Assembly: GCF_001318295.1 (NCBI RefSeq)
Contig: NZ_CP012665.1
Location: 558,001 to 622,000 of the forward strand
From: Candidatus Xiphinematobacter sp. Idaho Grape
Lineage (GTDB): Bacteria > Verrucomicrobiota > Verrucomicrobiia > Chthoniobacterales > Xiphinematobacteraceae
Reading direction: 5' to 3'
DNA: 64,000 bases
How positions within the stretch are numbered: the stretch's first letter is position 1; each line of letters begins with the position of its first letter. The position numbers and the translations under genes are program-made. The notes below the pieces were generated by a model. It searched no databases. It worked only from the letters and a program-made list of their open reading frames with translations, and had not been told where the DNA came from. Shown here piece after piece: positions 53,623-58,961 of this stretch.

Positions 53623-54330
53623 ATGCTTAAAGTGAAAAGTCTCAACGTGTTTTACGGTTCAGTACAGGCTCTACACGGAGTCTCTTTTGAGGTCCCAGTC
53701 GGAAAAATTGTTACTTTGATTGGCGCAAACGGTGCTGGAAAGTCTACTGTACTGCGTACCGTATCTGGTCTAAACCGCCCGACAGCCGGTAGTGTGCAAT
53801 TTAATGGGGAGGACATTTCTAGCCTACCTCCTTACTTGATAGTAGACAAGGGGCTAGCCCACGTGCCAGAGGGTAGGATGATATTTTCAAATCTCTCTGT
53901 CCGTGAAAATTTAAAAGTGGGATCCTACCGAAGAAAAAATCACCGTGCATTGCCTGCAGATCAAGATTATGTCTTTTCAATCTTCCCCCACATCGCAGAG
54001 CGCCTCAACCAACAGGCGGGAACCCTCTCCGGTGGGGAACAGCAGATGCTGGCCATTGGCAGAGCAATTATGAGTGGAGCAAGAATGTTAATGCTTGACG
54101 AGCCTTCATTAGGAATTGCTCCGATCCTTGTGGAAACCATTTTTCAACGACTAATTGAACTTAATGAACGCCGTGGCATGACAATTCTTCTTGTAGAACA
54201 GAATGCGAACCTTGCACTACAAGTCAGCCATCTTGCTTGCGTACTGGAGTCTGGAAAATTGGCCCTCAGTGGAAGGAGTAGGGAACTGCGCGAGAATGCT
54301 CAGGTCCGAAAAGCCTATCTTGGACATTAA
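53623..54330 (+). CDS. livF: Branched-chain amino acid ABC transporter ATPase LivF
   Basis: 235 residues, the usual LivF length. Walker A is GANGAGKST near 37-45; the LivF hallmark HVPEGRMIFSNLSV (about 84-97) precedes signature LSGGEQQMLAIGRA and Walker B LMLDEPSLGIAP, with a VEQNAN switch region. It follows livG by 23 bp. Its stop overlaps the stop of the convergent NRPS-like gene by 4 bp. Confidence 0.94.
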   Translation: MLKVKSLNVFYGSVQALHGVSFEVPVGKIVTLIGANGAGKSTVLRTVSGLNRPTAGSVQFNGEDISSLPPYLIVDKGLAHVPEGRMIFSNLSVRENLKVGSYRRKNHRALPADQDYVFSIFPHIAERLNQQAGTLSGGEQQMLAIGRAIMSGARMLMLDEPSLGIAPILVETIFQRLIELNERRGMTILLVEQNANLALQVSHLACVLESGKLALSGRSRELRENAQVRKAYLGH

Positions 54331-57300
54331 GGATTAGTTTGAGACGAAGGGAGAACCTCTGTAAGAAGTTTAGCTACCTCAGCTGGCTGATCTAAGGGAG
54401 ATCCTCCTTCCAAATGGAGCTGGTTCCATATTCCCATAGGAGCACGTTGACACCACTTCGGATCAGGTTTTCCACTAACGAAAAAATGGGGTTCTCTCTG
54501 AAGTACTGGGGCTCGATATTCGGCAATTATTTCCACCAGATCCTTAGGATCTGCCTTATCCTCCTTAATGAAGAACGCCCTTCTTAGGACTTGTAACCAC
54601 TTTGCAGGTTTTTGATTGCAAGGTGGGATGTCAAAAAGGACGAGAGACAAGCTTTTTTTGTTCTTCTGATCTAATTGATGAGCTAACTCCCAAGCAAATA
54701 TTGCCCCCACGCCAATACCGATGAGAGCAAATTCACCTGAGAGATATTCCTGAAGAACGAGTGCTAAACTGCAGGTAATTTTTTCTACAGTAGCTGAAGG
54801 AGCTAGTGCCCTCCTAGGAACCACGAGACAATGTACAGCATACTTACTGGATAAAGACTGTGCTATGGGGAAATAATCCTCGGCAAGGCCTCGGCCGGCA
54901 TGAATAAAATAGAGCGCGATGCTACCATCAATCCCTGTTTGCAGCGTCGTTATAACGGGTAGCCGTCGTAAGGGTTCGACGCCAGAGTTTAGGTGGTGGC
55001 AGCTACCTGCCTCCGCCTGGGGAGTGGTAGTTGGCACAAGTATAGGTATAATAGGTTGCGGCTTTGGAGTGGCTAGAGACAGTGGATCTATCTGATCAAA
55101 AGGATCTAAATGAAACCGGGTGACAAGTGCAAAATGTGCGGGTACCAACTGTCTTGGAAGGTGTTCCCTTAAATGCTGATCCAACGTGGTTGGCAATGAC
55201 GCCACGTGGCTGTCGCGTGGCACAATCCATGCACCCAAGCAGGACGATTGCTCCCCAAGCGGAGTAAAGCTACGAACTATGCCGTCAATAATATCTGGAT
55301 GAGAAGCAAGTGCATCTTCTATCCGATGCAGGGTCGTCCAATCCAAACTATCTGGGAGTTGGCCGTAAGGTTGACTAATCAGTACAAGCTGTCCTTTTTG
55401 GTTCCATCGTGCCCATTCATCTGTCACAGAAATTTGCCAGGAACGGCCACCTATAGTGGCAGTTACGGTCTTCTTGTTTTCACACATCCCATTCTGAATG
55501 TTTTCGTGCAAACAATATGCAAGAATTCCAGGAGAGTAAGAGGGGAGTAGTTGGTACCGGCTGTCTACAAGAAACACTGCAACACTGGGCTGTGGACGGC
55601 CACAGACCAGTCCCATCTCACAAAACTCCGGTGCATCATCAAGGCTTTCCGTTACAATGCCACTCCCCAAGAACTCTGAAGGGCTATAAAATACAACGCA
55701 ATCAGCTTTTCCTCTGTTCTGTTCCTTCCACTTGGAAATGATCGAACGCGAGATATGACCCGCCTCAATTACTATCCGATGCAAAGTACGAGGTGTAGGA
55801 TGGTGTAATTCGGCAAGATAGTGTAGCCATTGACTCCAGAAAGCAGCCGTGAGGCGTAGATGTGTGATCTTTGCAGACTCAAGAGTTTCCTGAAAGGCAG
55901 TCCGTGTGCTTTTAATGCTTTTCTCTGGAAAAATCAATGTGGCTCCAGTAAGGAGAGCAACAAAGCACTCTTCTACTGCCGCTGCACTACCCTGGAGGTG
56001 GTGGCAGAGAATCCGGTCATTGGGCTGCGTATTATAGGTACAAATGGCATTTGTTACGACAGTTTGTAGCTCTGCATAAGAGATTACTCTTCGATCTCCG
56101 TTGGACTGCAGGACAGAAACCACAGGGCTAGTAGGAGCGAGAGAAGCAATGGGTAATACCTGCCTTGGAAGAGAGAGGATTCTCTCCCATAGAGGCTCTT
56201 CCAACACAAGTAAAGTGTGTTGGATTTTTCCAGGAATAGCCTCCTCGTTCCTGTCTGTTATCACAGTAGACACCTGATATCTGGAAAGGTACTCCCCGAG
56301 TTCGGCAGGTAATGCTTCTGGATCTAGCGGCAAGCAGGTACAGCCAACTCTTAGTGCTCCAAGTAAGACAACCAACGTCCATGGGGAAAGGGGCATTATC
56401 AGTGCAAGGACTGTTCCAGCACCTATAGAACGGTTTTTTAAAAATGTGGAAAATTGACTGGAATAGGTTTCCATCAGAGAAAAACTTAAAGAATCACTTC
56501 CCTTTTCTACAAATGTGCGGGAGCCATGCAGTTGAACAATCCTTTTTAGAGCTGTGAATGGATCGAGGAAAGTTGGTTGCACTAAAGGGGATACCACCCC
56601 CAAACAGACTGCTTCCTCCTCTTCACTGGGAAGGCCTAACTCGATCGTAGAAACCAGTGTATTTGGCTCTGCAAAGTAGTGTAGCGCCTTAAGAAGACGT
56701 TCAAGTAACTGGCGTACAATCCGCGGAGAAATCCAGCTAGGGTGGTATTCGATAGCGATAGAAAGGCGTTCCCTTCCACAAGCCAGAACCTGCATGGGAA
56801 ACCGAGAGTTCTGGTGTATGTGAGCGTCGAAACGCATCCACTGAGGTAAGCAAGTATGAATGCGGTTATTAAGACTTTCCGGTAAGTAATGCAGGGTGCT
56901 GCTAAGTTGAGGGCAGGGATCAGAATGACCAACGTGGTTCCATACTTCTTGGATATTGGTTATAAGGAAGGGTTCAGTACTAAGTTCTGTCTCCTGCAGA
57001 GAGCGCAACCATGCTTCACAGGTTAAGTCCTCTGGAACCTGAATAGGAAAGGGCAAGCAGCTTTCAAAGAGACCTACTGATTCCTCAGCCTGGGAACCCG
57101 CAAGACGACGGCAGGAGCGATAGATACCAAATATTGCCTCTCCGTCCACGTTAACCCGTCCAAGGACCAAACCCCAGGCTGCCGCAAGAAGAATAGGTAA
57201 GGAGGCGTCTGCTAGACTAGCTGACTGAATAAGCTGCATAGTAGTTTCTTTCTCCAAGAGAAAAGCCTCACATTTTAACGGAGAGTCCTCAGGGGTGCCG

Positions 57301-57950
57301 CTAGATGCTTGAGAATGGGAAGGAGCTACAAATGGTAGAGGATTGATTCGTTGCAAGAGATGTTTCCAGTGCTGGCAGGAGGCTGCAGGGTCTGCACTTT
57401 CGATGGCACCAATAGCGGCTGCATAAGAAGGAGATTCTTGCAAAGAAGGTTGACATCCATAAGAAAGCTCCTCATAGAAAATCAGCCAATCACGCAACAC
57501 CAAAAAGATAGATTCCCTGTCTAATAGGATTGGGTGACAAGTCCAAAGAAAGTGGTGCATTTCTCTAGGCAGTTTGATGATGTGAAAATGGAAGAGGGGC
57601 GGATGAGTTAAATCAATGGATTCTGCTGCATCTTTAGACCGCAGGCGATTCCATTGGACACTTATTTCCTCGCTGGAGAAGTTACACCAATTGAGAGGAT
57701 GCCAGACAGTTTCGCAATCCTTATACTCACGGAAAGAGAGTACATCGCCTGCTTTCTTGCTGAAACCAGAGCGGAGCAAACCATGCCGGCGTATTACCCA
57801 TTGCCAAGACTTTTGGAGCAGTCTGATATCCACGGGTTCTCCAAAATTGAAAGAAATCTGTATATTGTCAGCTATGGTTGTCCCATGGAGGATATCTGTG
57901 GACACAGCATAAATAGCTTCTTGCATGGGAGAGGCTGGGAATTCGCGCAT
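54327..57950 (-). CDS. NRPS-like protein (condensation-adenylation-thioesterase) with degenerate active sites
   Basis: An unbroken 1207-residue protein with the domain order of a nonribosomal peptide synthetase module. The condensation-like domain spans about 1-430, but the HHxxxDG motif reads HPILLDR at 139-145, so the second His is Pro140 and the final Gly is Arg145. The adenylation-like domain spans about 460-960: the A3 loop near 609-622 has lost the SGTTG.PKG pattern, A5 is YSPSE at 755-759, A7 is TDEWARW at 843-849, and the A10 lysine is Gln953. No carrier domain with its GxxS serine fits in the 40 or so residues before the thioesterase-like domain (about 1005-1200), where GxSxG reads GIGVG at 1078-1082. 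It looks like a pseudoenzyme. Motif alignments are by eye. No partner NRPS genes are nearby. Confidence 0.8.
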   Translation of the reverse strand: MREFPASPMQEAIYAVSTDILHGTTIADNIQISFNFGEPVDIRLLQKSWQWVIRRHGLLRSGFSKKAGDVLSFREYKDCETVWHPLNWCNFSSEEISVQWNRLRSKDAAESIDLTHPPLFHFHIIKLPREMHHFLWTCHPILLDRESIFLVLRDWLIFYEELSYGCQPSLQESPSYAAAIGAIESADPAASCQHWKHLLQRINPLPFVAPSHSQASSGTPEDSPLKCEAFLLEKETTMQLIQSASLADASLPILLAAAWGLVLGRVNVDGEAIFGIYRSCRRLAGSQAEESVGLFESCLPFPIQVPEDLTCEAWLRSLQETELSTEPFLITNIQEVWNHVGHSDPCPQLSSTLHYLPESLNNRIHTCLPQWMRFDAHIHQNSRFPMQVLACGRERLSIAIEYHPSWISPRIVRQLLERLLKALHYFAEPNTLVSTIELGLPSEEEEAVCLGVVSPLVQPTFLDPFTALKRIVQLHGSRTFVEKGSDSLSFSLMETYSSQFSTFLKNRSIGAGTVLALIMPLSPWTLVVLLGALRVGCTCLPLDPEALPAELGEYLSRYQVSTVITDRNEEAIPGKIQHTLLVLEEPLWERILSLPRQVLPIASLAPTSPVVSVLQSNGDRRVISYAELQTVVTNAICTYNTQPNDRILCHHLQGSAAAVEECFVALLTGATLIFPEKSIKSTRTAFQETLESAKITHLRLTAAFWSQWLHYLAELHHPTPRTLHRIVIEAGHISRSIISKWKEQNRGKADCVVFYSPSEFLGSGIVTESLDDAPEFCEMGLVCGRPQPSVAVFLVDSRYQLLPSYSPGILAYCLHENIQNGMCENKKTVTATIGGRSWQISVTDEWARWNQKGQLVLISQPYGQLPDSLDWTTLHRIEDALASHPDIIDGIVRSFTPLGEQSSCLGAWIVPRDSHVASLPTTLDQHLREHLPRQLVPAHFALVTRFHLDPFDQIDPLSLATPKPQPIIPILVPTTTPQAEAGSCHHLNSGVEPLRRLPVITTLQTGIDGSIALYFIHAGRGLAEDYFPIAQSLSSKYAVHCLVVPRRALAPSATVEKITCSLALVLQEYLSGEFALIGIGVGAIFAWELAHQLDQKNKKSLSLVLFDIPPCNQKPAKWLQVLRRAFFIKEDKADPKDLVEIIAEYRAPVLQREPHFFVSGKPDPKWCQRAPMGIWNQLHLEGGSPLDQPAEVAKLLTEVLPSSQTNP

Positions 57951-58301
57951 AGAAGAGTGGATAAGATGGAAGAGTGCCCGAACCGGGTTGAGAATGGTGG
58001 AGTGGTGATTGCTATTCTCAGAGACGGAGTTTTCTGTCTTCTAAAGGGGGGGGGGAGAATTTTCTAGTCTTCCATGGAATGGTAATATATCGTCCGTGGT
58101 GTGTTGTCGTCGGTCAGATGAAATGGCACTGCCTTGCTCCGCATGCTTAACGAGCGACCAAAAGCAGTAGAGCCGGAGGTAGTTCTGGCAGCAATGCGCG
58201 TGGCCTCTATGGGGAAATCACTTAAAGTCTTACAGAAACTCTCTTCTGTGCAAAAGGCATGTATAAATCAAGGCACTATTGAAGATTTAGTTCTCTCTAG
58301 C

Positions 58302-58961
58302 ATGAGTGGGATGGGTGTCCGTATTTTCTTGGGTATCCTCGGCATCTTCTTGCTCCTGTCGCTCCTGTTTTCTACAGTAAAGTCGTTTCCACTCACCGGC
58401 AGCGTTTTTTCTTCGGCAATTACGGCCATCGATCAAGATGGGAACCAGATGGCTTTTGCTGAGGTCTACCCAAGAGAACCTACGCTCGTGTACTCCTCTA
58501 CCCAGCAGCAGACACTCCTAGCCGTACAGCACAGGCCTGTTGCCTTAAGGGATGCATTTGAAGCCCTCAAGGCACAGAAACCCCACACCACTGCGGCAAG
58601 CCGAGGCTCCAGGATCGCACAAAAAACATTTCATAGTAAATACAATATTCCCCCTCCATTAATTGCAAACACCAACGGAGCTGTTGCTAGGATATTCGGA
58701 GTGCCGCTTCTAATGGAGATTTATTCTTCCCGGCGGACCCTTTTTACTAACAAGAACGGAGAAGTAGTTTGGAAGTCGGCTCAAGGCTGCGGCACGCAGT
58801 GGTACGATAGAAGTGCAGACAGCGTTGGATTTTTTAGCAAAAAAGGCCTTGACGCGGGGGAAAATTCCAGACCCCCAAAAGATTGGGTTGATAGCTCAAC
58901 GGTAGAGCAGCGCCCTTTTAAGGCGTTGGTTCTGGGTTCGAATCCCAGTCAACCCATGTAA
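58302..58961 (+). pseudogene. Decayed thiol peroxidase (Bcp/AhpC-TSA type) with compensating frameshifts
   Basis: The frame from an ATG at 58302 (open from 58134) codes a membrane-anchor-like stretch followed by a recognisable peroxiredoxin: SAITAIDQDGNQMAFAEVYP, then, after a garbled part, LRDAFEALKAQ, QKTFHSKYNIP and GAVARIFGVPLL. Between about 58489 and 58553 the peroxiredoxin reads in the +2 frame instead: YPAADTP then SRTAQACC. This fits a 2-base insertion (probably GT duplicated near 58487-58491) and a 1-base insertion near 58550 that together restore the frame. The peroxidatic Cys position (DTPGCT) is an Arg codon CGT at 58523-58525. The natural stop is gone and the frame runs through tRNA-Lys to 58961. 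Probably non-functional. Confidence 0.7.
58885..58956 (+). tRNA. tRNA-Lys (UUU)
   Basis: Complete 72-nt cloverleaf: acceptor GGGTTGA pairs with TCAACCC, the D arm is AGCTCAACGGTAGAGC, the anticodon loop CTTTTAA gives TTT (Lys), the T arm is CTGGGTTCGAATCCCAG, and the discriminator is A at 58956. CCA is not encoded. It lies inside the 3' end of the run-on frame of the peroxiredoxin remnant and 44 bp before treZ. Confidence 0.95.

Follow-up and report, generated by a model that had tools for sequence, protein, structure and literature searches.

A probable masked pseudogene of a BCP/PrxQ-type peroxiredoxin in Candidatus Xiphinematobacter

The analysed stretch of DNA (the window) comprises 64,000 nt of the forward strand of Candidatus Xiphinematobacter sp. 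Idaho Grape (NZ_CP012665.1, 558,001–622,000), and all coordinates given below are positions in this stretch. The genome (CP012665; PMC4607532) is 915,884 bp in length, and the organism lives as an endosymbiont in the dagger nematode Xiphinema americanum. The genome of the sister symbiont, isolate P23, has a size of 917,278 bp (CP068473; PMC7857533). Two other members of the genus have larger genomes (approximately 1.9 and 2.5 Mb).

An open frame of 219–275 codons is present on the forward strand at positions 58302–58961, or at 58134–58961 if started at an upstream TTG. Within it, positions 58302–58840 constitute a segment orthologous to BCP/PrxQ-type peroxiredoxins. The main-frame translation reached 26.3 bits with the Pfam family AhpC-TSA (E = 7.5e-6), which is barely above the cut-off of 26. 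No NCBIfam model matched the remnant at E-values up to 0.01, and a sequence-only search of the PDB yielded no match. The amino acid identity to the closest intact relatives is 40–45%. In the gap before the remnant, a run of ten G was observed at 58046–58055, which is missing from the sister genome.

Intact orthologs are found in both larger-genome relatives (1.9–2.5 Mb) and feature a signal-like N-terminus and the motif FYPKADTPGCTAEACSLRD. Their PxxxTxxC context and C_P-x4-C_R spacing are as in BCP/PrxQ peroxiredoxins (thioredoxin-dependent thiol peroxidase; PDB 3drn, 5enu), with which the homology is domain-wide. The best NCBIfam match of the intact orthologs is thioredoxin-dependent thiol peroxidase, under the cut-off, and their best match among solved structures is a Bcp homolog (PDB 3drn). 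The encoded BCP/PrxQ-type peroxiredoxin was probably secreted. The gene or its remnant directly precedes tRNA-Lys in all four genomes of the genus Xiphinematobacter. The remnant shows both homology to the AhpC-TSA/PrxQ family and the expected neighbours. A contig scan of the neighbouring treY provided outgroups for treY alone. The remnant differs from BCP/PrxQ peroxiredoxins in the Arg codon at the C_P position, in the frameshifted active-site segment and C-terminus and in the mentioned lack of an NCBIfam match.

A profile was derived from 19 homologs belonging to the same order, and its alignment to the DNA permitted frameshifts at a charge of 8 bits each. The profile score increased from 126.5 bits without frameshifts to 177.4 bits with three of them, a gain of 51 bits. 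The frameshifts were placed before 58496 (+2), 58542 (+1) and 58780 (+1), and the remnant hence has no continuous reading frame over the domain (Table 1). Between the first two shifts, the DNA reads LYPAADTPSRTAQAC versus FYPKADTPGCTAQAC in the profile alignment, and the out-of-frame Cys region between the +2 and the +1 is YPAADTPSRTAQAC. The similarity of the Cys segment was reached by none of 5000 dinucleotide shuffles and, when the main frame was recoded synonymously, in one of 5000 trials; its likeness in the shifted frame is not due to chance. For the C-terminal segment, to which the third shift leads, the same two controls gave one and none out of 5000, respectively. A preliminary description of this DNA had proposed a peroxiredoxin remnant with its active-site segment out of frame with the flanks, which is borne out by the frameshift-aware alignment. 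Its notion of self-compensating indels holds for the first two, which cancel, but not for the whole gene, which is left unbalanced by the uncompensated +1 at about 58779 that had been missed.

Table 1 Features of the peroxiredoxin remnant and the adjacent tRNA gene (positions in the window)
Position	Strand	Feature	Basis
58302–58493	+	N-terminal part of the remnant in the main frame, signal-peptide-like hydrophobic start, ITAIDQDGNQMAFAEVYPREPTLVY	Profile and DNA alignment
58494–58495	+	First frameshift, 2 bases more than in intact relatives; which bases of TCCTC are the added ones is ambiguous	Profile and DNA alignment
58496–58540	+	Active-site segment LYPAADTPSRTAQAC, in the shifted frame only; second Cys (C_R position) kept	Profile alignment, significance controls
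58523–58525	+	CGT (Arg) at the position of the peroxidatic Cys of intact homologs	Profile and DNA alignment
58541	+	Second frameshift, 1 extra base, main frame restored; placement uncertain by one or two bases	Profile and DNA alignment
58542–58778	+	Central and C-terminal part in the main frame (ALRDAFEAL...NGEVVWKS)	Profile alignment
58779	+	Third frameshift, 1 extra base, uncompensated, not in the sister symbiont	Profile and DNA alignment
58780–58838	+	Original C-terminal tail in the shifted frame (LKAAARSGTIEVQTALDFL), original stop lost	Profile alignment, significance controls
58884–58957	+	Intact tRNA-Lys(TTT), traversed by the masking open frame, conserved neighbour in 4/4 genus members	

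The peroxidatic Cys of the PxxxTxxC motif is missing from the remnant. The CGT codon found at its position lies outside the ORF's own frame. A change from TGT to CGT had been described before; the CGT is indeed present, but an ancestral TGT is not established, since the two intact relatives of the same genus use TGC. With the active-site Cys gone in every frame, the gene would not yield a working peroxidase. As predicted from the sequence, the product of the open frame, if any, could not be a working peroxiredoxin. Programmed frameshifting was also considered but rejected, since the sites lack slippery runs and no frame retains the catalytic Cys.

The tRNA-Lys gene is open in one frame (VDSSTVEQRPFKALVLGSNPSQP), and an upstream gene that loses its stop codon in that frame therefore gains a spurious tail. 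Downstream of the third insertion, the reading frame enters the tRNA gene in this open frame and ends at 58961, which makes the open frame look longer than the gene. The original frame segments of the remnant contain no stop codons. The simulated chance of such stop-free segments is 10–37% for 100–40 neutral substitutions. Stops would be somewhat expected in a gene that died long ago, and their absence counts mildly against the interpretation as a pseudogene.

The syntenic copy of the sister symbiont has five internal stops in the match and several frameshifts. To judge by these lesions, the P23 copy is dead and has decayed further than the Idaho Grape copy. This overt pseudogene and the alignment agree with the preliminary description, in which a Bcp-type gene decays through a +2 and a +1 indel and loses its catalytic Cys. 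At the DNA level, the two symbionts are 57% identical in the remnant and 54% in the gap before it, 78–87% in the flanking genes and 99% in tRNA-Lys. Changes were polarised in one alignment of about 290 sites with the larger genomes as outgroups. On the Idaho Grape branch, the rates of change at codon positions 1, 2 and 3 are 0.13, 0.09 and 0.28 (Fisher p = 0.001), compared to 0.19, 0.24 and 0.22 on the sister branch (Fisher p = 1.0). The patterns of the two branches differ with a Fisher p of 0.03. With a third-position bias here and a flat pattern in the sister, the Idaho Grape copy seems to have been selected for much of the branch and to have died later. The bias fits a recent loss, and the comparison of these approximately 290 sites suggests that the loss in the Idaho Grape lineage was later than and independent of that in the sister.

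Disabling lesions relative to the intact orthologs are present, and the locus very probably represents a masked pseudogene; the peroxiredoxin that it once encoded was of the BCP/PrxQ type (atypical 2-Cys) and probably secreted. An assembly or sequencing error, with a gene that is intact in the organism and with artefactual indels and Cys change, would account for a short gene with three indels among neighbours that are open over their full length. A second, low-abundance strain, separated by 5,676 SNPs, is reported from the same sample and made the assembly harder (PMC4607532). Such an artefact is nevertheless highly improbable: the assembly is based on Illumina data with about 1,290x coverage, at which assembly indels are unlikely, and was manually inspected for errors (PMC4607532). 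In addition, the indel sites are not long homopolymers, the indels are accompanied by many missense changes and the sister genome carries a dead copy. We give equally little credence to a functional protein of changed role, in which the frame-restored ORF would still be made and kept as a redox-inactive secreted protein with a binding or structural role and the double frameshift would be a tolerated internal remodelling instead of decay. The frame is open over its entire 219–275 codons and the third-position excess on the Idaho Grape branch indicates that constraint lasted through much of it, but this signal is better explained by selection before inactivation. Moreover, unrelated sequence stands in place of the family's most conserved segment, the C-terminus is destroyed by the third frameshift, the frame crosses a tRNA gene and the sister copy is dead.

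Within the interpretation as a pseudogene, a single inactivation before the two symbionts diverged is a possible but rather doubtful variant, and is less likely than two independent losses. Both copies have additional bases at the first as well as the second indel site, and may have one added base next to the second in common. However, the net shifts differ at both sites (+2 here versus +4 in the sister at the first, +1 versus +3 at the second), the third lesion is confined to the Idaho Grape genome, without a counterpart in the sister, and the codon-position patterns differ between the branches.

The masked pseudogene is a case of ordinary reductive gene decay in a symbiont genome. Selection on the peroxiredoxin would have lapsed when the lineage turned into an obligate intracellular symbiont. 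According to the alignment, the gene is disabled by three small insertions and the change of the peroxidatic Cys codon, and the long open frame persists because two of these insertions fortuitously cancel each other's shift. The sister copy carries other lesions, and the loss here was presumably independent and later. Both symbionts retain another full-length peroxiredoxin of the AhpC-TSA family and one Fe/Mn superoxide dismutase, which may have relaxed the need for the lost enzyme. Catalase is present in both larger-genome members of the genus, and none was found in either reduced symbiont genome. A reduced need inside the host, with other enzymes covering, is the likely cause of the loss.

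Like masked pseudogenes of other reduced endosymbionts, the remnant combines small indels and missense changes with a kept open frame, and intact copies exist in larger-genome relatives. It is distinguishable by the compensation of two of its three indels and by a last frame that crosses a tRNA gene, both of which help to hide the damage. The locus thus illustrates clearly how a pseudogene can escape length-based annotation when indels compensate each other and the frame reads through a tRNA gene. It also suggests that the two sister symbionts lost the same antioxidant gene in parallel. The main text of the two Xiphinematobacter genome papers makes no mention of a peroxiredoxin, and 1–4 pseudogenes per complete genome are reported (PMC4607532, PMC7857533). 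Given that an open frame can mask a pseudogene, these counts may be too low.

Elsewhere in the window, an NRPS-like protein with condensation, AMP-binding and thioesterase domains is encoded on the reverse strand at 54327–57950. Its core motifs look degenerate, and no carrier-protein (PP-binding) domain was found in it at E-values up to 10. The ORF is full-length in both symbionts (74% amino acid identity) and its divergence is third-position-biased, for which reasons the protein seems to be maintained by selection.
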